From Fidelibacterota bacterium (GTDB lineage: Bacteria; Fidelibacterota; Marinisomatia; SCGC-AAA003-L08; JACNLC01), in contig JABMOW010000107.1 of the NCBI GenBank assembly GCA_013204025.1, forward strand, positions 62,001-126,000: DNA of 64,000 bases, read 5' to 3'. Below are positions 45,396 to 62,391 of the stretch, one piece after another. A model generated the notes under the pieces. That model worked only from the letters and a program-made list of their open reading frames with translations. It was not told the origin of the DNA and did no database searches. A program made the position numbers and the translations under genes. How positions within the stretch are numbered: position 1 is the first letter of the stretch; every line of letters starts with the position of its first letter.

Positions 45396-45458
45396 TATTT
45401 TTAAGAGGTTTTTCGCTGAAACCAGGTGATTCATCTTTTGCCCGATCGTTCTAGCAGA

Positions 45459-45878
45459 CTAAAATTGAATTTCTTGGACCGAATGTCCAGCTCCTAATCC
45501 TAAATTGGGTTCGTCTTGATGCTGGAAAATAACCGCAAATAAATCTTCGTAAATTGGTTCGCAGGACGATTGAGGACCCGCAATGGAATCTCTGGTGTAG
45601 CACAACAGTTCAACTGAAGCTCCCAGATATAATTCAGATGAGTAGCCTGCGTCGAAGCAATATCCCTCCCAGGTCCAGAAAACCAATTCATTATCAATCA
45701 AAAAAAGTTCGTTCTTTATTTCTGAACAAATTGAATCAGTGGCCATTGAGATGAACGGCTGAAAGCTGAAATCTGTCGTCGGTAAATCAGTATTATTGCA
45801 CGACACAAATAGAAACAGAGCCCCAATTAATAAAGATGTCAAGATGCTCTTTATCGGCTGTAAGTCAAACAAAATCAT
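45459..45878 (-). CDS. Small putative lipoprotein
   Basis: Hydrophobic N-terminus ending in lipobox-like FLFVSCNN; no recognised domain. Confidence 0.5.
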   Translation of the reverse strand: MILFDLQPIKSILTSLLIGALFLFVSCNNTDLPTTDFSFQPFISMATDSICSEIKNELFLIDNELVFWTWEGYCFDAGYSSELYLGASVELLCYTRDSIAGPQSSCEPIYEDLFAVIFQHQDEPNLGLGAGHSVQEIQF

Positions 45879-45897
45879 TCTCCTTTCTTACTAGAAA

Positions 45898-46155
45898 TCA
45901 TTGAGTAATTTGATATACATACGTAATAACGTTGTTCATCGAATTAATGTTTCGAGTAAATATAAAAACGGGGACCAACACACTTAATACGATTTGCGAA
46001 TCCAATCCGATGACCGGGTCGCCATTGATCGTATTCAATGCCCGGAACACCAGAAATATCACCAATCCAATACACAATGTCTGGAATATCCCAAACATGA
46101 TGAACAAATTTCTGGATTTGGTAATGTCTTTCTTTGATTCCATGATATTCTCCAA
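45898..46155 (-). CDS. Small two-TM membrane protein (intact copy of a duplicated gene)
   Basis: MESKKDITKSRNLFIMFGIFQTLCIGLVIFLVFRALNTINGDPVIGLDSQIVLSVLVPVFIF; near-identical DNA at 47918-48110. Confidence 0.6.
   Translation of the reverse strand: MENIMESKKDITKSRNLFIMFGIFQTLCIGLVIFLVFRALNTINGDPVIGLDSQIVLSVLVPVFIFTRNINSMNNVITYVYQITQ
45961..46153. repeat. 193-bp duplication, copy 1
   Basis: Gapless near-identity to 47918-48110 (gaatccaatccgatgaccgggtcgccattgatcgtattcaatgcccggaacaccagaaatatcaccaatcc...). Confidence 0.9.
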
Positions 46156-46464
46156 GCCAGTTTGTTTAAGGTTTGTTAATTACTGTTATAATCCATTATT
46201 AGCAGAAGTTGGCTTGCCATAGAATTCTGATGATTAGGATTAGTTAAAATGTGTTCTATCTGATAGGTGTGATTGACAGCCCACGACATATCTTATTTGC
46301 CAATTTATTTGATATTTCAGTGTGCCCTTCGACATGACTGGTTTGAGATAACATCCGAATTTTCAGAGATGCTTCAAAAGGGCATCACGTTTCATTCAAC
46401 AGTAACAATTTCATGTTTAGTTTCAGGCGGAACACCCCGCATTGCTCTTCCCGATTGTCTTTAA

Positions 46465-46645
46465 GAATCAACGCTGATTTGCACCATCTTCTATGCCGAT
46501 CAGGAATAGAAGATGGTCCACTTTTAACTTTCTCTCAATATCCTGTATTCCATGGAACAACAAGACTACATTCTTCCCATAAAGAAATGATCGCGTTTTT
46601 ATCTTCAATATCAAATTCACTAATAATCGTTATTAATGCTCGAGT
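46465..46645 (-). pseudogene. YpeA-like GNAT acetyltransferase fragment, frameshifted and truncated
   Basis: Minus strand reads ...FDIEDKNAIISLWEECSLVVPWNT then, after a frame change, DIERKLKVDHLLFLIGIEDG, matching the YpeA-type 'VI.LW.RC.L..PWNDP..DI.RK...D..LFLV......' pattern; stops follow. Confidence 0.55.
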
Positions 46646-46693
46646 GGATTGAACAATTTTTTGTATGTCCTTAATTGAATCGGACTTTATTCA

Positions 46694-47542
46694 TTAAATC
46701 ATGGAACGTCTGGTCAGAAAGGAATCCATCAATATATCTCTGTTAAATCCCGATGGGGCAAAGCCATCACGGGCATACAGGAATACTGCTGTTTGAAAAA
46801 TAGCTTTTAATGCTGATTGTATGATTGCGAGACCAACGAAATAGACCAGGATTATTCCTATTAGCGGGATCATTGATGACACCTCTCCAAATATGGCGAT
46901 AATTACATAAATCACAATGGCGGGGATTGCCCATATAAAGAACACAAGTCCAAAGCTGAAGTTACCAATCAACTGGTGCCCCCAGGTTTTCTTCAGCAGA
47001 TTAGTTGATTCTTTCAAGGCGCTAATCGGATTTTTATTTTCTATCACAAGATAAGGAATGACCGTAAAGCTGATTAGTGACCAGGCCATGCCAAATATTT
47101 TCGCTGTCAACCGTCCCGCTTTTTTGGCTCGATTTTCGATAATGCTGATAAGCATTCCAATTGTTGCTGAAACCAAAGCCCAGCCGATGATAAATAATAT
47201 GCAGGACATAACAGCGCGGAGACCATCCATTACTGTTGGGTCGCCTCCCTTCATACGAATAGATGCACAGGCAACAATCGCAGAATTGAAAAAAATGATG
47301 GTCAGGTAAATACAGAAGTAGATGAGAAATCTAATAAAATAGTAATCGAACTGATCACTAAAGGGGGCTCCCTTGTCAGGTAGGTGCAACACACCGCCGG
47401 TACTGAAGGTTGAAGCAAAAGATGCCAGAACCAAGATGCAACAAACCGCCGATATAACTGGAAATATCAATAATTCTTTGTCCTTCTTGAGGACTTGCCA
47501 GGAAGCCCTCATCAGCGACCATGTATTTTCAAACTTATTCAA
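46694..47542 (-). CDS. Polytopic membrane protein (DUF6159-like)
   Basis: FENTWSLMRASWQVLKKDKELLIFPVIS...; ENKNPISALKESTNLLKKTWGHQLIGNF. Confidence 0.65.
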   Translation of the reverse strand: MNKFENTWSLMRASWQVLKKDKELLIFPVISAVCCILVLASFASTFSTGGVLHLPDKGAPFSDQFDYYFIRFLIYFCIYLTIIFFNSAIVACASIRMKGGDPTVMDGLRAVMSCILFIIGWALVSATIGMLISIIENRAKKAGRLTAKIFGMAWSLISFTVIPYLVIENKNPISALKESTNLLKKTWGHQLIGNFSFGLVFFIWAIPAIVIYVIIAIFGEVSSMIPLIGIILVYFVGLAIIQSALKAIFQTAVFLYARDGFAPSGFNRDILMDSFLTRRSMI

Positions 47543-47582
47543 TGCTTATTTCCAGACTTTTATTTTTTAATAGACAAATTTA

Positions 47583-47822
47583 TCAGTATTTCATCGTCAA
47601 TTTGGGTTCCAAGTTTAATTGATATGCCATAATGTAATAATTAGCGGCATGTTCCCACTCATTTATTAGACGATATGTGTAACCAAGATAAAAATTAGCA
47701 TCACAGAATGTGGAATCTTCTTTTACAGCATAATAAAAGAACTTTTGAACATGATCAATAGAGCCTTGTGATAAATATTTCATAAACAACCTAACTATTT
47801 TTGAATGGATGGAACCAAACAT
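47583..47822 (-). CDS. Short TPR-like protein, possibly truncated
   Basis: 79 aa: AVKEDSTFCDANFYLGYTYRLINEWEHAANYYIMAYQLN resembles one TPR unit. Confidence 0.4.
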   Translation of the reverse strand: MFGSIHSKIVRLFMKYLSQGSIDHVQKFFYYAVKEDSTFCDANFYLGYTYRLINEWEHAANYYIMAYQLNLEPKLTMKY

Positions 47823-47917
47823 TGCACAAAATTGAAGTGTCCGCGGTTCCAGATGCGTATTTGCTGTTCAAGACCGACAGATTAAAGTTTGGAATAAATC
47901 TGATATTCCACATTAAA

Positions 47918-48110
47918 TATAAATATGGGGACCAAAACACTTTATACAATTTGCGAATCCAATCCGATGACCGGGTCGCCATTGATCGTATTCAATGCCC
48001 GGAACACCAGAAATATCACCAATCCAATACACAATGTCTGGAATATCCCAAACATGATAAACAAATTTCTGGATTTGGCAATGTCTTTCTTTGATTCCAT
48101 AAGATTCTCC
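47918..48110. repeat. 193-bp duplication, copy 2
   Basis: See copy 1 at 45961-46153. Confidence 0.9.
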
Positions 48111-48125
48111 TTTATACAATTTGCG
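47941..48125. repeat. 15-bp direct repeats TTTATACAATTTGCG at 47941-47955 and 48111-48125
   Basis: Exact repeats at the two ends of the truncated gene copy. Confidence 0.8.
47942..48100 (-). pseudogene. Truncated paralogue of the 45898-46155 protein
   Basis: MESKKDIAKSRNLFIMFGIFQTLCIGLVIFLVFRALNTINGDPVIGLDSQIV* (52 aa); the paralogue continues LSVLVPVFIF, and this copy encodes SVLVPIFIF after the stop. Confidence 0.7.
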
Positions 48126-48238
48126 TTTTAATATTTTAATGTGCATCTACCGAATTTCATGCTATGCGTTTTTTCGTCCACTACAATAGCATGTTCGATG
48201 CTACTAACTTTAAAGTAAAAATTACAGGAATACATAAA

Positions 48239-49000
48239 TTAGAATTTTATTCCAACGCCAGCATTAATTAGTGAATTGTGAAATTCTTCTTTCACCTTTA
48301 TACCATTGAAATAGTAATTCCATGACAATGAGATAAACAGTTTTTTAGTACTGTTGACGCTAATTTTTGACGAAAGGAACGGGGATTCATGGTTGATTGA
48401 TTTAGCAATCACCCTCTCATCAAAACCTGTCTGTAATAAGTAGTTGAGTAATATTGATGCTTCAAAAAAGTGCCACTCTTTTCTAACGCCAATCCCATAA
48501 CTGAAACCCGAAGTTTGAATTGGCCTATCATCCAATAAGCTGAAAAACCAGTCCGAAGAATAACAAAATTCTTGTACGACACTGCTGGTCACACTTGGTA
48601 GTAGAGAAAACCTTATGTCTGCATTCGGGATTGATTTTAGCGATTCAACATACACCAGGGAAAGCTCGTGCCTTTTGTGTTCCTTGATTTTAGGTAGTGT
48701 TTCTGTTTTAAAATTATCAAAGTTAATTACATAAATTGAATCAACTTCAACAGTTACAATTAGATATGGATAAAGAGTTGAAATTTCTTTGGCAACACTA
48801 GATTTCTTTGTGGAAATTTCGGATAGGACATGATACAGGCACATTTGATTATTTGAAGATTTCACTCCCCAATTATCAACTTGAGAAATAGTTAAGTAAT
48901 ATACGCCTCCATTTTTTAAACTGATTCTATCCAAATCTTCTGAGGCTATGGATGCGGCGGAAAGAAGAAAGAGCATCAATAGTATTTTATTCAAATTCAT
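48239..49000 (-). CDS. Exported protein of unknown function
   Basis: Signal peptide MNLNKILLMLFLLSAASIAS; 253 aa, C-terminal beta-rich. Confidence 0.55.
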   Translation of the reverse strand: MNLNKILLMLFLLSAASIASEDLDRISLKNGGVYYLTISQVDNWGVKSSNNQMCLYHVLSEISTKKSSVAKEISTLYPYLIVTVEVDSIYVINFDNFKTETLPKIKEHKRHELSLVYVESLKSIPNADIRFSLLPSVTSSVVQEFCYSSDWFFSLLDDRPIQTSGFSYGIGVRKEWHFFEASILLNYLLQTGFDERVIAKSINHESPFLSSKISVNSTKKLFISLSWNYYFNGIKVKEEFHNSLINAGVGIKF

Positions 49001-49178
49001 AAGGGCTTCTTATTTTTAATAGTTGAATCTAACCGCCAAGCGCTCTGTGGTGTGTCTGATCAACATTTTTTTACTATAAGTCTCAGTTTCGTCTTTCTCA
49101 TTTTAGTTTCTATGCTTCCCACTTTTGGTGTCCGTTGTTCACCTACTACAGCCATACTCGAAATTGAGGTGTGGGTTG

Positions 49179-49199
49179 GCCTGCCTACCGCAGGCAGGC
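49179..49199. repeat. Perfect 8-bp inverted repeat GCCTGCCT-ACCGC-AGGCAGGC
   Basis: Direct reading of the intergenic sequence. Confidence 0.8.
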
Positions 49200-49227
49200 T
49201 TCGAGTGTTTGGCACCGATTGGATAAT

Positions 49228-49773
49228 TTATCTATTTAATGGATTTTTCTGAACACCTACAATCACATCAAGTATAGCTGGATGATTAGTTATAATCCTA
49301 TACTGTAAAAATCTTAAAATTGTCGAAAAATCTTTCCATTCAGATAAAAATAACTCAGGGCCGGTAATTAATTCTTTTGCTTCATCAATAGTCGCTTTCA
49401 AATATTCACTCATGGATTTTGTGAGAATTTCTTCTTCTAATGAGTCGATTATATTTTGGAGTTCATTTTTATCCAACCAAATGCCTTTACATGTTGTGCA
49501 GTAATCAATTTCAACTTCAGTTTTGTCATAGTCAAGTACATTCATTGGACTTTCGCAAACAGGACAAACATACTTTGTTGATTTGGGTTTAAACTTTTCT
49601 GGATGTTTCCAAATGTCGAAGTCCATCCAGTTAAGGTCAGAATCTATTTTGTCCTTAATCAGTCTCAATTCATCATTATCGAACCAAATACCTTCACAAT
49701 GATTACATTCATCAACTTCAATGCCTTGAATAGATTTCTTTAGCAATTCCATTTTACATTTTGGACAATCCAT
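49228..49773 (-). CDS. Protein with two TFIIB-type zinc ribbons (zf-TFIIB-like)
   Basis: MDCPKCKMELLKKSIQGIEVDECNHCEGIWFDNDEL and YVCPVCESPMNVLDYDKTEVEIDYCTTCKGIWLDKNEL. Confidence 0.85.
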   Translation of the reverse strand: MDCPKCKMELLKKSIQGIEVDECNHCEGIWFDNDELRLIKDKIDSDLNWMDFDIWKHPEKFKPKSTKYVCPVCESPMNVLDYDKTEVEIDYCTTCKGIWLDKNELQNIIDSLEEEILTKSMSEYLKATIDEAKELITGPELFLSEWKDFSTILRFLQYRIITNHPAILDVIVGVQKNPLNR

Positions 49774-49824
49774 CTTTTACTCCCATTTTAGTATCTTTTA
49801 TATAATTGATATTGAATCTTTTTT

Positions 49825-49914
49825 GGCTGACGGCTTGCCAGTCAGTCGCGCCTGTTGATTTTTCTGATTTTCATGTTAAGCGTGGTCCGCGTCCAGTGCA
49901 ATGGTGTGTTAGGT
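49825..49914. repeat. Candidate attC site (degenerate)
   Basis: Ends GGCTGAC / GTTAGGT; arms GGCTTGCCAGTCAGTCGCGCC vs reverse complement ACACCATTGCACTGGACGCGGACC partly complementary. Confidence 0.45.
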
Positions 49915-49929
49915 TTTACTTTAATATCT

Positions 49930-51273
49930 TCAATATAGCACAAGAAGAGGCATGTCAAACCGTACCCCTAACCCAAAATATTTCTGGTCGTTTCTAGTAT
50001 AGCTAATCTGAATAGCTAATGGAATATCTTTTACGCCAAAGGACACGTACACACTGTTGTCAATCAAATCGCCAATCTCCAAGGTGGATTTTTGATCTTG
50101 GATATGGTCATTGATTGCTTTCCCAAAATCGATAAAACTATAAAATAGACTTATTGAGTGAGACGATTTTGTACCCCAATTGTATTCTATTCCGATTGGA
50201 GCAGATAGTGTAAATTCAAAATTGTAAGTTTTCTCAGTATTTTCAATCAAGGATATTCCCAAGTAGGACGTGACTAGAAAGTGATGTTCACGAGGCTGTC
50301 GTTTTAATCCAAAACTTACTGAAGGAATGGTTGCATTCTTTAGGATAGTTTGAGCCTCAAGTGGTGATGTAGCATCCGAGAGTTGTGCGAAAAATATGGC
50401 AATATCCTTAAACTTCTGGAGATCTTGGGGTTTGATTTGCTTATTTAGACTGTCTATGAAATAATCCATTAGAATGAATGAATTTGAAACACGATACGTA
50501 AAGCTATTTGTTGAATCAGATACTGAAGAAATAATATTGATTATAAGTTCAACTTTGAGGATATGATCACTGTATTGATTAAAGAAATTAGATAATTCAG
50601 TATTATTTGATATCGGATTTTCTAGATCCTCTACTAGTATTGTAAAATCAACTATCGAGGACTTTGTTTTCTTAATCAATCCACTTAATAGGTCAAAATG
50701 TCCAAAAAGCTGTTGAACAGTTAGATCATTTAAACTCCTGGATATACTATCGATATTTGCAGATATGGATAAAATTGCATCATGTATGGGATTAATTGTC
50801 GCTAGAATTGACAAATCTGGCTTTGGGAAGGGCACTCTATTCAATGGGTAATCAATAGAATCTATTTGAATGGTAGAATGTTGGATCAGTTTAATATAAT
50901 TGTCAATCCATTGATTAATGTTTGGGAATACTTTGTTCTCAGATATCACCTTGTCAATTATCGATACGCCATAGTTTTCTAGATCATTTTCAACACAACT
51001 TGCCCAAACTTTCGAATTCGAGAGCAGAACTTTTAGATTTGTGTTTTTTACTAAATCATATGTGCTCGGGAATACAATCCTTACCATCTCGTTTTGAATT
51101 ATCTTCTGCTCAAAGATATAAATGAAATTATCGTTCGATCTATCAAGTAGAAATTCAGAAATGCCGTCAACCTTGTCTATAGATCGTCCATTTAATGTCC
51201 CCACAATAGAGATCAAAACAATCAGAGTGAGGAAGGATATCAATAAATATTTATAAAATAAAAACATAAACAC
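49930..51273 (-). CDS. Exported protein of unknown function
   Basis: 447 aa, N-terminal hydrophobic segment, beta-rich C-terminus; no recognised domain. Confidence 0.55.
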   Translation of the reverse strand: MFMFLFYKYLLISFLTLIVLISIVGTLNGRSIDKVDGISEFLLDRSNDNFIYIFEQKIIQNEMVRIVFPSTYDLVKNTNLKVLLSNSKVWASCVENDLENYGVSIIDKVISENKVFPNINQWIDNYIKLIQHSTIQIDSIDYPLNRVPFPKPDLSILATINPIHDAILSISANIDSISRSLNDLTVQQLFGHFDLLSGLIKKTKSSIVDFTILVEDLENPISNNTELSNFFNQYSDHILKVELIINIISSVSDSTNSFTYRVSNSFILMDYFIDSLNKQIKPQDLQKFKDIAIFFAQLSDATSPLEAQTILKNATIPSVSFGLKRQPREHHFLVTSYLGISLIENTEKTYNFEFTLSAPIGIEYNWGTKSSHSISLFYSFIDFGKAINDHIQDQKSTLEIGDLIDNSVYVSFGVKDIPLAIQISYTRNDQKYFGLGVRFDMPLLVLY

Positions 51274-51291
51274 TCCTTTATTTCAAAATAA

Positions 51292-51415
51292 ACCTTACGG
51301 CTGATCTCTGCGACGCCAACCGGTATTTTTCCTATTACTAAATTCTGCATGCTTTGAAGTCCAAACCTCCCAAGAGAAAACGCGCTATCTGTGTCCGGTG
51401 CAGTGGTTGTTAGAG
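51292..51415. repeat. Candidate attC site (degenerate ends)
   Basis: Ends ACCTTAC / GTTAGAG; shares ~60 bp (ctctgcg.c.ccaaccggt...ttctgcatg..ttgaagtccaaacc) with the site at 53492-53618. Confidence 0.5.
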
Positions 51416-51517
51416 CACTTTTAATACAACTCTAAAAATTCCTTTACCGCACCGTATATGAATTATCATCTACTCTTAAATCATTCTAGATTCATTTAAA
51501 AAATGCACTTTTACCTA

Positions 51518-51620
51518 CGATAACTCGCCAAAAACTGTAATACATTTCACAACGACCAGAAAACGTGACGCGTTTTTGGTTGGGTTGATTACCATATTAA
51601 GGCACGATTTGCGGTTAGCA
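51518..51620. repeat. Candidate attC site
   Basis: Ends CGATAAC / GTTAGCA; imperfect palindrome between a cassette-like gene and the next boundary. Confidence 0.45.
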
Positions 51621-51623
51621 TAA

Positions 51624-52511
51624 CTATTTTCTTTTAAACAATTCTTTTTCAATCTGAATCGGGACCTGAAAAATATCATTCTTATCTTCTTTGAATTCAA
51701 ATGGAACATGAACCGGTTCTATATCTAAATTTTCTGATGTGCGGTTAAGAAAGAAAACATTGCTTGATATAATCGAGAATTCTTTTTCATTAATCCAAAT
51801 TTTCTTTTTTTTATTCTCATATCTGAAAGGGATGTCAGAGTCAGGATAGTCTAACGAAAATTCAGAATTAAATAATGAATTTGGCGTTTTATTGAATTTG
51901 AGACTTACTATTAAATCTTCATCAACAATAGCAAAGAGAAATTTCTCATTGTAATCATAAAAATGCCAAACTCGACCTAAATTCTTATTAACAAATAAAT
52001 CATATTGGATAAGTTCTGCATTATACTGTGGCAAAAAAATAAGTATAAAAATGAAACCGATTGAATTCCTGATGGAGTGGCTTAATGCTGTGATCCAAAA
52101 AGCAGTCAGATGTGATTTTCTTATCCAGTGCGCATATGTAAAAGCCAGATAAAATCCAGCAACGGTGCCTGCTGAAATTCCGACCTGCCATCCAATAAGA
52201 AAATGAGCAATTGCAAACAATACAAAAGAAATAAATATTTGAAAAGTAAAATTAGCCCTAAAATACTTTACAATTGAGATAGGTATCGTCTGAAACATCA
52301 AGGTTTCAATTAATGGAGCCAAAATGACAAGAAGAACAAACAATCTTATTGTAGACAGATTCACAAATGAACGAATTGGGACATCCCAAAAAAACTCAAT
52401 GATGGAGCCGATAATAAAGCTTAACAGAACCGATTCAAAAGTAATCAGAAGAAGAAAACGAAATTGAGAAAGTTTTTGATAATTTTGAAAATGGGTTTTT
52501 AGAAAAATCAT
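51624..52511 (-). CDS. CPBP-family (Abi-domain) membrane protein
   Basis: Multi-TM; LAPLIETLMFQTIP, FVLFAIAHFLIGW (FxxxH) and LSHSIRNSIGF (HxxxN); first motif is degenerate relative to EExxxR. Confidence 0.7.
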   Translation of the reverse strand: MIFLKTHFQNYQKLSQFRFLLLITFESVLLSFIIGSIIEFFWDVPIRSFVNLSTIRLFVLLVILAPLIETLMFQTIPISIVKYFRANFTFQIFISFVLFAIAHFLIGWQVGISAGTVAGFYLAFTYAHWIRKSHLTAFWITALSHSIRNSIGFIFILIFLPQYNAELIQYDLFVNKNLGRVWHFYDYNEKFLFAIVDEDLIVSLKFNKTPNSLFNSEFSLDYPDSDIPFRYENKKKKIWINEKEFSIISSNVFFLNRTSENLDIEPVHVPFEFKEDKNDIFQVPIQIEKELFKRK

Positions 52512-52546
52512 TCTACCTCAAATGAATGTCAATTGTCGAAGAAAGT

Positions 52547-52651
52547 GCTCTAACGTCTTGCTCACTGGCGAAGTAAGTTGGCGCGCGTTTTTGCGTCTTT
52601 TTGCATAAACCGCGACAGCTTACGGAGTCCGCGTGCAGCAACTTGTTAGGC
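52547..52651. repeat. Candidate attC site
   Basis: GCTCTAACgtcTTGCT...AGCAActtGTTAGGC outer arms complementary (CTAAC-nnn-TTGCT), inner arms CGAAGTAAGTTGGCGCG vs CGCGACAGCTTACGG. Confidence 0.7.
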
Positions 52652-52657
52652 GTTTTA

Positions 52658-53470
52658 TCAGAACGGAATATTATCTATTTCTGAATCTTCTGTTATTTTT
52701 TGCGCTTTACGACTGCGTGGAGCCTCTATTGCTTCTATAAACCGAATAGAGCTAGTTATGTGGCCAAAAATAAGCAAGCTCTCATTGTAGTTAAGCACTT
52801 CATTGTCATGAGCATAACTTTGTTGATTTCTTACTTTGTTGAACGCTTCCATAACTGAAATACTTGATTTCAGAATACGTTCTGTCATTTCTGATTCTAT
52901 TAACCCGTTATTTTTCAGAAATTTCACATACTCGCCAACTAGACTATGCAGTGGTTTTCCCCATTCTGTTGTAATGCCATGCTTATTACAAAGAGCGCGA
53001 AAATATTTTGTTACGAATGCGTGCAAGCGATCTAAACCGATTTCTGGCTCATTGCGATCTATTGACTCTCGAACTGATTTCGCCAGGGCTTCAAAACTTT
53101 TATCTTCTGTATTGGCTTCGACTGCACCTATTTCTGGAACAGGTGTACTAGTTTTTAAGCGCTGAACGATTTTCAGACATTCTTCTGGCACTGGCGGCTT
53201 ATCAAACCCGTGTTTCAACTCGTCCCAATTATCGAAAATAGCCCCCAGCAGTTTTCCAACCATATAATTTGACTCAATATCCCAAAACGACCTCAATCGG
53301 TTGGCTTTCGATCCACTCCCAAAATCATACTTCGAGTCATAAATCTCTATACCCGTGCAATATAATATGAATTCTTCGAATGTTCGATTGGAAAAATCTA
53401 GAACGTAGCCACTCGCCATTCCGAATGTTCGTTCTAATTTCCTTTTTTCCATCATAGTGAGGTCAGACAC
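52658..53470 (-). CDS. Abortive-infection-like protein (AbiJ-NTD-like N-terminus plus Abi C-terminal-like domain) with SSB-like tail
   Basis: MEKRKLERTFGMASGYVLDFSNRTFEEFILYCTGIEIYDSKYDFGSGSKANRLRSFWDIESNYMVGKLL; C-terminal SLVGEYVKFLKNNGLIESEMTERILKSSISVMEAFNKVRNQQSYAHDN; ends SEIDNIPF. Confidence 0.7.
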   Translation of the reverse strand: MSDLTMMEKRKLERTFGMASGYVLDFSNRTFEEFILYCTGIEIYDSKYDFGSGSKANRLRSFWDIESNYMVGKLLGAIFDNWDELKHGFDKPPVPEECLKIVQRLKTSTPVPEIGAVEANTEDKSFEALAKSVRESIDRNEPEIGLDRLHAFVTKYFRALCNKHGITTEWGKPLHSLVGEYVKFLKNNGLIESEMTERILKSSISVMEAFNKVRNQQSYAHDNEVLNYNESLLIFGHITSSIRFIEAIEAPRSRKAQKITEDSEIDNIPF

Positions 53471-53491
53471 GCTATCTCCGATGGTTTTTTA

Positions 53492-53618
53492 TGCATAACA
53501 AGATAGCCTCTGCGGCACCAACCGGTGTCTTCCCTGTAACTAGATTCTGCATGTCTTGAAGTCCAAACCAAAAAATGTGAACGCCGTTTTGGGGTCCGTT
53601 ACAGCGATTTGTTATGCA
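53492..53618. repeat. Candidate attC site
   Basis: TGCATAACAAgatagc... / ...gcgatTTGTTATGCA perfect 10-bp outer arms, inner arms GGCaCCaAccgg vs GGaCCcCaAaacgg; the methylase stop codon lies inside the right arm. Confidence 0.7.
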
Positions 53619-54817
53619 TTCTTCAATGTATTTGCAACACTTAATGCAACTTGATAAGCAACAGGCGGTGAAACCGAATTACCAATTTGCCCTATAATTT
53701 GATATACAGCTCCTGCAAACTTCCATGATTCAGGAAACCCCTGAATCAAGCCAACATCTTGAACTGAAAGTCTAAAATGTCCGTTTTTTGCGGGAAATGC
53801 TGATGCTTTATTTCTATCTATTTGAACACCATTAGGCCATATTTGCATATCTCCCCAAGTCTTTTGACCTGCTGTACTATTTAGAATAGAAGTTGTATTT
53901 CTTTTTCCTGTAAAAGCACTTCTAATGGTAGGAGCTAAGCTATCAAATCCAATATTTGGCAATCCTAAACACTCCCTAACTCCACCAGTTTTTGCCAACC
54001 CATCATCGAACAAAGAAGGAGTGTAACCTTGATTTCCTAAATGGCTCCAAGTATGAGTAGGTTGAGGCAAGATAATTTTTTTTAAATTATTTTTTTTTCT
54101 GAAGCCAACAAAAAATACCCTCTTTCTGATTTGTGGGACACCATAATCTGCGGTATGCATTTCAAACTTAGTAATTGAGTAATCTGATAGTTGATTAAAA
54201 ATATGTCTTTTGACAAAGTCTCTGAATTTTGGATTAAGTATTCCAGGAACATTTTCCGCTATAAATACTTTAGGCTTTATCATATTAACAGCCCTACTAA
54301 ATTCTCCCCACATATTTCTTTTATCATCTATTCCTTTTTGTGCACCAGCAATGGAAAATGGTTGGCAAGGCGGACCACCATGAACTATGTCTATTTTTCC
54401 TTGATAATGATTCCAATCTGCTTTCGTGACATCACCTTCATTCGGCCCACAAAATATATTTCCACATAGCAGATTTGAAGACAAGGTATCTTTACATATT
54501 GGTATAAGTTCATAAGATGCAACATGATTATACCCTGCCCTAGAAAACCCCAAATCTAATCCACCACCTCCACTAAAAAGGCTGATGGCTGTCAAATTAT
54601 TGTTTTTCAGTTGAGGTATTAATAAATCGGGATCAAAATTTGGAGTATTTACTTTATGATTACTATCAAGAAGCCCTTGTTCAGCGGCAAGCTTCGCTAT
54701 CCGAGATTCATGTGATATTTTTCTATACAACGCTCTTTTTTCATCAGTAATATCATACGCTCTTTGGGAAGCATTTTTGTAAACTGAGGTATTATTAAAT
54801 GATTTTATAGCATCCAT
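53612..54817 (-). CDS. DNA (cytosine-5-)-methyltransferase
   Basis: AISLFSGGGGLDLGFSRAGY, HGGPPCQPFSIAGAQKGIDDKRNMW, FIAENVPGIL, QIGNSVSPPVAYQV. Start MDAIKSFNNTS (54817) preferred. Confidence 0.93.
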   Translation of the reverse strand: MDAIKSFNNTSVYKNASQRAYDITDEKRALYRKISHESRIAKLAAEQGLLDSNHKVNTPNFDPDLLIPQLKNNNLTAISLFSGGGGLDLGFSRAGYNHVASYELIPICKDTLSSNLLCGNIFCGPNEGDVTKADWNHYQGKIDIVHGGPPCQPFSIAGAQKGIDDKRNMWGEFSRAVNMIKPKVFIAENVPGILNPKFRDFVKRHIFNQLSDYSITKFEMHTADYGVPQIRKRVFFVGFRKKNNLKKIILPQPTHTWSHLGNQGYTPSLFDDGLAKTGGVRECLGLPNIGFDSLAPTIRSAFTGKRNTTSILNSTAGQKTWGDMQIWPNGVQIDRNKASAFPAKNGHFRLSVQDVGLIQGFPESWKFAGAVYQIIGQIGNSVSPPVAYQVALSVANTLKNA

Positions 54818-54821
54818 AAAT

Positions 54822-55478
54822 TCATCCTTTAAAATATGCACGAACCATAGCTCGCAATTCATCGGCATGATTTTTTGTAATTTCTGTCCACCCATAAAAA
54901 TATGTAATAGGAATATGTGGATTGTTTAAGGTGCTTCCTCTTTCAATCAAATATCTTGCTCTGTCTTTTACTATTTCAAGCATTCTTCTTGGGCTATAAC
55001 CCTGCTCTAAATCTTGCAATTTTACATACTTTTCTTTTTTGTATTGCATTTTCTGTAATGCTTTAGCATCTTCATAAGTGTAAGCATCTTTTTCCCCGAT
55101 AATACGATACATGTCTTCAAGATCAATCTTGGCAGGTGCAAGCTTTGCTAACTTGAAGTCTGGTGTAATATAATCTTCTTTGCTTTTAATCCACTTTGCC
55201 ATCATAGATGGAGAACCATATTTATAATAATCTCTGCCTTTGATAAAGAAGCCTATAAGCCAATGTTTATTTTCCCATTTTCGTATATGCTCAGGACCAA
55301 AGTCTCTTACTGTGGTAACAGAACCTTGAGAGGTTGTTTTTAGTTCAAACGGAATACTTTTTCCATCTAACTTCAAAAAAGCATCTATACCAGACCGCCC
55401 CTCTGATTCATCTTTGTAAAGATCAAAGAGAGCAATCATCGCCCCTTCTCTGTCATCATCTTGAAAATTCTTTGCCAT
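54822..55478 (-). CDS. Putative type II restriction endonuclease (PD-(D/E)xK)
   Basis: SGIDAFLKLDGKSIPFELKTTSQGSVTTVRD fits D-x(n)-ExK; directly precedes the C5 methylase on the same strand. Confidence 0.7.
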   Translation of the reverse strand: MAKNFQDDDREGAMIALFDLYKDESEGRSGIDAFLKLDGKSIPFELKTTSQGSVTTVRDFGPEHIRKWENKHWLIGFFIKGRDYYKYGSPSMMAKWIKSKEDYITPDFKLAKLAPAKIDLEDMYRIIGEKDAYTYEDAKALQKMQYKKEKYVKLQDLEQGYSPRRMLEIVKDRARYLIERGSTLNNPHIPITYFYGWTEITKNHADELRAMVRAYFKG

Positions 55479-55721
55479 CTTATTCCTTATTGTTCAGTGT
55501 TCTGCATAACTAACAATTATGACGAATGAATCGCCACATGATATTTTGTTTAATCAGAGTTTTCATAAGCATAATTTAATCAAATTAATAAATGAAAATA
55601 TTAGAAAATAAAAGAATTATTTTTTCTCTATGTCTTTGATGAAAATCAAAAGATTGAAACTAATTTGTGAAAAACCGGATATTACCCTCATGATTGCACA
55701 TCATTTTCAGCCAGATCTACC

Positions 55722-56549
55722 ATGAATGCTCTAGGAAAACAAACCCGAATTTGGGTGATCATCGGATTGACTGTGGCAATTGTTGCCCTGCTGTCCACAG
55801 ATTATGCACAGGCACTGCTGAAATCCAAACGCCATTTTGTTCAGCATTCTATTGATGCACGGGTCCGGTATGAGCCGGGAGCAGAACAATATGCGGATGC
55901 ACTGGCAGACGATTTAAGTGACGCCGTCTCCCGGGTGGAGGAGATTCATGGCGTTCCATTCAAAAAAGTGTTTACGGTGTACATGTGTGCGACCCAGGCA
56001 AGTCTCAACGAATATGTGGCAAATCCACTTCATTTTCCCGTCAGAGGTACGGTCCCGTTTGGGAATGTGTTGATTGCGCCATCCGCATTTCACTGGCACG
56101 GAGAAGATACCCACAAAGGGACGCTGCGGCATGAACTGTCTCATTTACTTCTGAAACAATATCTAGGGGAGATCAAAAACCGAACGATCATCCCCGTGTG
56201 GTTCAGTGAAGGTCTGGCGGACGTGGCGTGTGAGTGTGCGGGAGAGGGGATATCCGATGAAACTGCCAACCGAGCGATCATGGCAGGGCGGCGGTTTATC
56301 CCGGACACAAAAAACAGTTTATTCAAGATAAAGCGGGCGTCTGATTATGGCGTGGATTACCCCATGTTCCATAGACAGTCTCACCTGCTGGTGGCATTTA
56401 TGCGGGATACCTATGGATTGGCATTTCAGGCATTATTGGCAGATATCCATTCTGGTACGTCATTTGATCGTGCTTGTGGCGAACACCTGAACGTATCCCC
56501 TGATACACTGTGGGAGGCATATATCGCCAATATCAGTCAGGTGAATTAA
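55722..56549 (+). CDS. Gluzincin-type metallopeptidase (peptidase MA-like), exported
   Basis: LRHELSHLLLKQYLGEIKNRTIIPVWFSEGLADVACE (HExxH...E). Confidence 0.75.
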   Translation: MNALGKQTRIWVIIGLTVAIVALLSTDYAQALLKSKRHFVQHSIDARVRYEPGAEQYADALADDLSDAVSRVEEIHGVPFKKVFTVYMCATQASLNEYVANPLHFPVRGTVPFGNVLIAPSAFHWHGEDTHKGTLRHELSHLLLKQYLGEIKNRTIIPVWFSEGLADVACECAGEGISDETANRAIMAGRRFIPDTKNSLFKIKRASDYGVDYPMFHRQSHLLVAFMRDTYGLAFQALLADIHSGTSFDRACGEHLNVSPDTLWEAYIANISQVN

Positions 56550-56603
56550 AGTTTGACCAAATTAAAATAATGAGAAACATTTGCGCTCAAATAGTGTGAC
56601 AGA

Positions 56604-57374
56604 GTGCTTAACAATTATGGAGAACAGATGAGAACTGCAAATCCTGCTCTGAGCGATAAAACATTTAAAGACTATTCCGGTTATTCAGACGCTTCCGGAG
56701 TGATGACCATTAATGGTACAGTTAATAAAACATTTCTAATGCTGGTACTGGCGTTATTCCCAGCTGGCTGGATATGGAGTCAGTATTTTAACAGCGGAAA
56801 TATAGCGGTGGTCTTACCCTGGCTGGTGGTGGGCGGTATTGGTGGATTCATCGTAGCAATGATCACCATCTTTAAAAAACAATGGGCGATGGTCACAGCC
56901 CCAGCTTATGCCATTCTGGAGGGCTTTGTATTGGGTGGCGTATCCGCAATATTCGAATCACAATATCCCGGCATCGTTGTTCAGGCGGTATCCCTCACCC
57001 TTTTCATCCTATTGAGTTTGCTTTTTGCTTATAAATCCCGCTTGATAAAAGTGACGGATAACTTTCGTCTTGGTGTTGTGGCTGCCACAGGTGGGATTGC
57101 GTTGGTGTATTTTGCATCGTTCATTCTGGGATTTTTCGGAATACACATACCGATGATCCATTCCAACGGATTGTTCGGTATCGGGTTTAGTATTTTTGTG
57201 GTGATCATCGCTTCCATGAACCTGGTACTGGATTTCGATTTCATTGAAAAAGGGGCAGCCTCCGGAGCGCCCAAATTTATGGAATGGTACGCTGCATTCG
57301 GACTTATGGTGACACTCATCTGGCTATACCTGGAGATTCTCCGCCTTTTGGCCAAACTTCGGAGCAGACGGTAA
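56604..57374 (+). CDS. Bax inhibitor-1/YccA-family membrane protein
   Basis: MRTANPALSDKTF...VMTINGTVNKTFLMLVLALFPAGWIW; seven TM-like segments. Confidence 0.88.
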   Translation: MLNNYGEQMRTANPALSDKTFKDYSGYSDASGVMTINGTVNKTFLMLVLALFPAGWIWSQYFNSGNIAVVLPWLVVGGIGGFIVAMITIFKKQWAMVTAPAYAILEGFVLGGVSAIFESQYPGIVVQAVSLTLFILLSLLFAYKSRLIKVTDNFRLGVVAATGGIALVYFASFILGFFGIHIPMIHSNGLFGIGFSIFVVIIASMNLVLDFDFIEKGAASGAPKFMEWYAAFGLMVTLIWLYLEILRLLAKLRSRR

Positions 57375-57491
57375 ATTTTGCGATCCGATGTCACGGGAGA
57401 ATCAACTGATTTTCTGACGGATATATGAATGCGAACATCCTTCGGGAGTCGTAAATTTCATGCCATTTTAGAATAAGGAAATAAAGAATTC

Positions 57492-61729: not shown

Positions 61730-62391
61730 CCCTACTCCATTTGATTAAAAAAGAAATTCGTCAGGAGATCCGGGCAAAGGAATCGATCATTTCCATGGTG
61801 GTTTTCGGTACTTCTGTCATCCTACTTTTCTCATTTGCATTTAATGCCACCCCTGCAGAATTCAGTCGGTTTTTACCGGGTCTCATGTGGATGACATTCC
61901 TGTTCGTTTCGGTTCTGGGATTACTTAGAAGTTTTTCCGCCGAAAAAGAGATGGACGCCTATGCAGCATTACTTTCATCGCCCGTTGACAGGGGCAGTAT
62001 TTATCTTGGGAAACTGTTCGCATTTTGGATATTCCTGTTGTTCGCTCAGCTCTTCACGATGCCTCTATTTGCACTCTTCCTCAATTTGAATATTTCAGCT
62101 CATTTCTTCACATTTATGGTTCTGGTTTTGGTGACAGACTGGGCAATCGCAGCTGTGGGCATTATGATATCCGGGATGGGTTTACGTACGCGGATGGGAG
62201 AAGTTTTGGTGCCTGTCCTTATGTTTCCATTATTATCGCCTGTTTTGATTTCAGCCACGAAGGTGACACACACCATTGTCAGCGGATCAACCCTCGCGGG
62301 CACGAATTTCTGGATGATGATCCTTTTCACGTTTGCCGTCGTGTTTACTGCGACGGGATATTTAACTTTTGGCGCAATTTCGGAGGAATAA
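61726..62391 (+). CDS. ccmB: Heme exporter permease CcmB
   Basis: LIKKEIRQEIRAKESIISMVVFGTSVILLFSFAF; SPVDRGSIYLGKLFAFW; PLLSPVLISATK. Confidence 0.92.
   Translation: MTLLHLIKKEIRQEIRAKESIISMVVFGTSVILLFSFAFNATPAEFSRFLPGLMWMTFLFVSVLGLLRSFSAEKEMDAYAALLSSPVDRGSIYLGKLFAFWIFLLFAQLFTMPLFALFLNLNISAHFFTFMVLVLVTDWAIAAVGIMISGMGLRTRMGEVLVPVLMFPLLSPVLISATKVTHTIVSGSTLAGTNFWMMILFTFAVVFTATGYLTFGAISEE

Follow-up and report, generated by a model that had tools for sequence, protein, structure and literature searches.

Clusters of attC sites lacking an integron integrase (CALINs) are known at several loci in Xanthomonas (PMC12444791), and their origin is debated, the proposed routes being off-target insertion, loss of the integrase gene intI and rearrangement (PMC8618304). 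In the CALIN of Xanthomonas sedentary chromosomal integrons (PMC12444791), attC-bounded cassettes lie in one orientation with no adjacent intI, away from the main integron locus and with signs of decay. The same features recur in a 64,000-nucleotide stretch of the genome of a Fidelibacterota bacterium (positions 62,001 to 126,000 of contig JABMOW010000107.1, assembly GCA_013204025.1), referred to below as the window. Its segment from 49.8 to 55.5 kb very probably holds four integron gene cassettes, in an array that an integron integrase assembled at an attI-type site, position 55510 (Table 1). By its features the array is a CALIN, but unlike that of Xanthomonas it begins at an attI-like element, one of about eight in a genome in which the integrase was not found. 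The four cassettes contain a restriction-modification (R-M) operon, an Abi_C gene, a gene for a CPBP-like membrane protein and a gene for a 447-residue protein without a family match. The complete integron of a relative in the same family (genome G181) shares the attI motif, the general form of the attCs and the direction of the cassettes, which lead away from attI, but there intI adjoins attI at a different locus, and the typA-ccmE interval occupied by the present array is empty.

Table 1. Features of the cassette array and its surroundings (window coordinates; R′ and R″ are elements of the attC right end).
Feature	Coordinates	Strand	Details
attI-like element	55507..55561	-	insertion point between G55510 and TTATGC; blocks AxxAAACAxAA and ATTCGTCATAATTGTTAGTTA
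Cassette 1, type II R-M operon with attC A	53499..55509	-	same ends in L116, L114 and L122
Putative restriction endonuclease, 218 residues	54822..55478	-	PD-(D/E)XK pattern (D32...E45-x-K47); P43, E45, L46 and K47 invariant
C5-cytosine DNA methyltransferase	53612..54895	-	PF00145 7.3e-56; TIGR00675
attC A (GCATAAC ... GTTATGC)	53493..53617	-	arm scorer 37.7; R2 28.5 bits, E 1.4e-4
Cassette 2 with attC B	52554..53498	-	limits set by A and B
Abi_C abortive-infection family protein, 270 residues	52658..53470	-	PF14355 3.1e-12; HEPN-like Rx6H motif (RNQQSYAH)
attC B (GCCTAAC ... CGTTAGAG)	52548..52651	-	arm scorer 37.6; single extrahelical G in L box
Cassette 3 with attC D	51298..52553	-	5′ start pairs with own R″ over 13 nucleotides
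CPBP/Rce1-like membrane protein, 295 residues	51624..52511	-	PF02517 1.7e-5
attC D, right box GTAAGG (mutated)	51292..51415	-	arm scorer 30.0; R2 32.5 bits, E 1.4e-5
Cassette 4 with attC E	49831..51297	-	start GTAAGGTTT and R″ of E AAACCTAAC differ by one base
447-residue protein	49930..51273	-	no family match in profile searches
attC E, right box GTCAGCC (mutated)	49825..49914	-	arm scorer 32.4
Protein, two zinc ribbons of TFIIB type, immediately downstream of E	49228..49773	-	PF13453
12.1-kb insertion between typA and ccmE, holding the array	45396..57491		gap of about 0.3 kb in G181

The attC models were trained on sites adjacent to intI, taken from the surroundings of intI in genomes of the same phylum and none from the window; these share a left end RYYTAAC-A(A/C)-...-(G/T)GAC and a right end CGTTARRY. 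An arm scorer was derived from 33 sites (position weights, pairing of the L boxes and the GGAC motif) and an Infernal model, R2, from 15 sites, three of which lie on another contig of the same genome. Sites were lettered from A, at the highest coordinates, to E, at the lowest. With the arm scorer, A, B, E and D are the four best minus-strand matches in the whole window, and to this extent the five palindromes of the original prediction hold up as attCs; the fifth, C (51518..51620, minus strand), scores 10.3, lacks the TAAC...GGAC left arm and is internal to cassette 3. When the region was shuffled 100 times with dinucleotides preserved and its minus strand scored, 93 shuffles contained no match of at least 30, seven contained one and none contained two, and the background was five such matches in 403 kb outside the array (mostly of the same genome, both strands). 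Over the 64-kb window R2 reported only D and A at E values up to 10, both on the predicted strand, so a covariance model does score sites of the predicted array. The open-frame list bears out that the minus strand carries all of the genes between 49.9 and 55.5 kb.

The ends resembling RYYYAAC and GTTRRRY that had been ascribed to all of the palindromes are found at A and B, the right boxes of D and E being degenerate. Folding of the bottom strand, proposed as a check, divided the sites likewise: on the recombinogenic (plus) strand A and B fold better than shuffled sequences (z about -2.2 and -2.56, respectively), and C, D and E do not. D and E retain the left arm and the L boxes, with a mutated R′ and weak folds; folding by itself is weak evidence at these sites. 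No attC model matched in a search of Rfam. A further model limited to the arms (R1) was negative in the window with filters on or off, a result that is uninformative because R1 is blind to long loops, including those of its own training sites, many of which it also missed.

In a circular cassette, R′ is carried at the 5′ end and pairs with the R″ of that same cassette. When the first 14 nucleotides of each cassette were matched to the R″ elements, the true assignment ranked first of 24 permutations, with 40 matches compared with 29 for the along-array register. Cassette 3 alone matches its own R″ at 13 of 14 positions, its start GTTAGAGCACTTT being the reverse complement of the left end of D over 13 of 13 bases. 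Since cassette 3 pairs with the R″ of D, it extends from B to D and site C lies within it.

D and E look like true attCs in which GTT has become GTA and GTC, because homologues with intact boxes occur elsewhere in the genome (its contigs are given C numbers, C97 being that of the window). The homologue of D on C102 keeps an intact right end, CCGTTAGAG, and that of E on C29, 73% identical over 88 nucleotides, keeps GCCGTTAGAC. A is 69% identical to an attC on C102, and A and D have 62 nucleotides in common at 84% identity. Single-base changes in the GTT triplets of D and E would lower or abolish excision and so fix part of the array; the cassettes of D and E may have been locked in by these changes to the cleavage triplet. 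The altered triplets of two cassettes, set against the intact homologous sites, suggest a route from mobile cassette to fixed gene.

Genome-wide, R2 found about 18 sites at E below 0.02, on C102, C1, C29, C6, C141, C97, C71 and C123; three of those on C102 belonged to its training set. One further attC array (L151, C102:36000-46492) has six R2 sites on the minus strand together with GNAT and HEPN-like genes, and its upstream side reaches the contig end. Others are present on C29 (L170, 8000-22000) and C1 (L169); the array on C1 extends to the contig end, and C1 and C102 are perhaps joined.

The original prediction included neither the 5′ boundary, at 55510, nor the attI-like element that lies there. 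The core of the element is identical at 19 of 21 positions to the attI that precedes the first cassette in the intact integron of G181 and at 18 of 21 to the same core found 176 nucleotides upstream of intI in G070 and G071, which belong to another family of the class, whereas the best match in 400 random windows of 1600 nucleotides was 15. Over 55 nucleotides the element has a leave-one-out score of 35.1, the background maximum being 11.7 in 433 kb. Its motif and insertion point thus match the attI of three integrons, and no intI stands beside it. Position 55510 was considered at first as an attG site, an idea given up once the element proved to match attI sites beside intI. The element is about 0.2 kb from a divergent gene at 55722, and the contig is unbroken on both sides of the array. 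This attI-like proximal end falls within the window, which excludes the option, raised earlier, of a longer array of which just the distal part is seen here.

An integron integrase, acting in cis at an earlier time or in trans, would have inserted the cassettes singly by attC x attI recombination, with the newest placed next to attI; intI would since have been lost from the locus, would never have been adjacent, or would be active from elsewhere. Transcription from a promoter located at attI or upstream of it would extend through the defence genes. Integron expression is usually strongest nearest attI, and that place is occupied by the R-M cassette.

The R-M operon itself links the array to cassettes in other phyla. 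Relatives were found by a methylase scan of genome contigs followed by DNA comparison, and the segment 53594-55504 of the window has 80-83% DNA identity to segments of Anaerolineales HSG24 (L116), Desulfobacterales HSG16 (L114) and Desulfococcaceae HSG9 (L122), the first a Chloroflexota genome and the others Desulfobacterota genomes. In L116 an attC stands immediately on each side of the operon (R1 18.5 and 21.1 bits; arm scorer 35.5 and 43.5). The two Desulfobacterota contigs have GTTATGC on the 5′ side and GCATAAC or GCATAGC on the 3′ side: GCGTTATGC precedes the endonuclease gene and GCATAACCAAACACTCCAGCGGA follows the methylase gene in L114, and in L122 GGTTATGCC is on the 5′ side and GCATAGC...CGTTAGGC on the 3′ side. 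Judged by these ends, the R-M cassette exists elsewhere as a unit with the same boundaries. An R-M cassette that crosses phyla with its recombination ends intact supports the idea that integron cassettes carry phage defence over long distances. In the more distant L117 and L118 (68-70% DNA identity) the two R-M genes have another arrangement, and an attC was not observed around them. As a separate observation, the attC after the operon in L122 (5205-5235) seems to have been reduced by an internal deletion to GCATAGCCAGTCGTTAGGC.

Like other type II R-M integron cassettes, cassette 1 looks promoterless, and cassettes with restriction functions form a recognised class (PMC8618304); it differs from them in that no Pfam or NCBIfam model matches the family of its putative endonuclease and in that three phyla or more share it, with about 80% identity in DNA. 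The putative endonuclease retains the D...P-x-E-L-K pattern, and a structure model of low confidence (pLDDT 62) has PvuII as its best match, with a weak PvuII-like fold. Apart from a weak 40% match, the enzyme is absent from the phylum genome set, and a search of plasmids and phages gave no match. The methyltransferase probably starts at 54817; its PF00145 and TIGR00675 matches and its homology to HaeIII methylase, the nearest solved structure, assign it to the methyltransferases of type II R-M systems.

Several points weigh against the identification of the array as one of integron cassettes. R2 gives no score to B or E, the attC models were built on 15 to 33 sites, and R2 has a partial match of 28.1 bits once in 400 kb of the relative G181, because of which A (28.5 bits) is marginal by R2 alone; the support for A is the summed evidence and not its R2 score. 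(The match in G181, at 19230-19338 of L210 on that genome's contig C5, lacks R boxes and is perhaps an attC remnant or a false match.) The genome, moreover, is 88% complete in 163 contigs, with the arrays of C1 and C102 at or near contig ends. No integron integrase (TIGR02249) was found above the cut-off in the whole assembly, although of 245 phylum genomes 42 have a match above it, two members of the same family among them; the functional intI of a complete integron is therefore not seen in the assembled genome. Nor do the open frames of the region include one, as had been noted from the window itself, and together with the attC scores the missing neighbouring intI supports the view of the array as an attC cluster without an adjacent integrase.

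Since the genome is incomplete and the C1 and C102 arrays reach contig ends, intI may be absent from the assembly only. It is nevertheless rather unlikely that the arrangement is an assembly effect, an ordinary complete integron with intI on an unassembled or missing piece: the contig is continuous across the array, so no intI is missing at this locus, and one could be missing only elsewhere. On C31 (L015, 9655-14705), a 66-residue C-terminal fragment of a tyrosine recombinase was rejected as an intI remnant, its resemblance to Xer proteins being as close as that to IntI; it is followed by a 1565-residue P-loop protein that resembles a large defence gene product, and GTTAGGTGC lies between the two. 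In the same class, G070 has six integron-integrase genes, five of them nearly complete, on its contigs C13, C50, C54, C57, C65 and C71.

The attI-like element is not alone in its genome. Pattern search and scoring identified eight, on C97 (that of the window), C141 (three), C118, C110, C112 and C85, with leave-one-out scores over 55 nucleotides of 25-52, the background over 433 kb reaching 14.4. In simple identity, those on C97 and C118 agree with the G181 core at 19 positions and two on C141 at 17, a value not reached in the 433-kb background; the remaining elements, at 15-16, rest on the longer motif and on position. At six of the eight an attC match lies downstream on the same strand, directly after the first gene at five, two of which (on C118 and C110) have weak R2 attC scores of 19.3 and 18.6 bits. 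A second attI was not seen in about 0.4 Mb of G181, where about one would be expected at the density of the present genome. Two of the elements on C141 (L197, 4137-4157 and 5884-5904) form a pair in the same orientation 1.75 kb apart, with upstream flanks of 71 nucleotides that are 84% identical, which suggests an attI repeated within one array.

Tentatively, these elements could make up a distributed integron, in which about eight scattered attI sites, each with one or a few cassettes, some of them for defence, depend or depended on one integrase acting in trans, whether external, lost or unassembled, in contrast to a single intI-attI platform holding one array. The CALIN itself is known, but attI sites dispersed at several loci with no integrase look like a new variant; in the literature open without subscription, a search gave no account of more than one attI element in a genome lacking an integrase. 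Such a genome offers a direct way to separate the routes by which CALINs originate. Off-target insertion, in which an integrase encoded elsewhere placed cassettes at chromosomal attG sites that are not true attI, would fit the array without a neighbouring intI and the presence of about eight such loci in one genome, and attG insertion is documented in work cited in PMC12444791 and PMC12901181; it is improbable here, since the 55-nucleotide element with its two blocks at fixed spacing matches the real attI of G181, G070 and G071 and since the scores of the eight, far above background, are not expected of random chromosomal sites. A plain defence island that arrived by other means, its palindromes being terminators or chance, is scarcely credible even though defence genes often cluster and several sites fold no better than shuffles, given the sequence-specific attC arms, the homologous attCs across the genome, the attC-bounded R-M operon in another phylum and the 13-nucleotide self-match of a cassette.

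The comparison of gene order at typA that had been suggested with the original prediction revealed a difference and not a shared order. In G181, about 0.3 kb separates typA from ccmE, beyond which come ccmF and genes orthologous to those of the window from 57492 onward, and the insertion site is empty. The typA flanks of other members of the family contain no scoring attC, and their synteny was unusable.

The remaining cassettes contain one gene each. The Abi_C protein of cassette 2 is about 50% identical over its full length to proteins encoded on plasmids of Pseudomonas, Aeromonas and Legionella, where several are beside R-M genes; in the present array, by contrast, it has a cassette of its own, with an attC between it and the R-M cassette. 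No Abi_C protein was found in a search of viral contigs. Cassettes 1 and 2 most likely act in phage defence. The CPBP/Rce1-like protein of cassette 3 was found in one of the 245 phylum genomes searched, namely its own.

Beyond E, attC scoring downstream of the zinc-ribbon gene found none: candidate F (49147-49027) scored 6.7 and candidate G (48199-48143) 20.5, and no attC is claimed for either. Between typA and the array, a 197-nucleotide sequence occurs twice (45957-46153 and 47914-48110; 95% identical) and carries the start of a gene for a small membrane protein; of the two copies, that at 48 kb is truncated.

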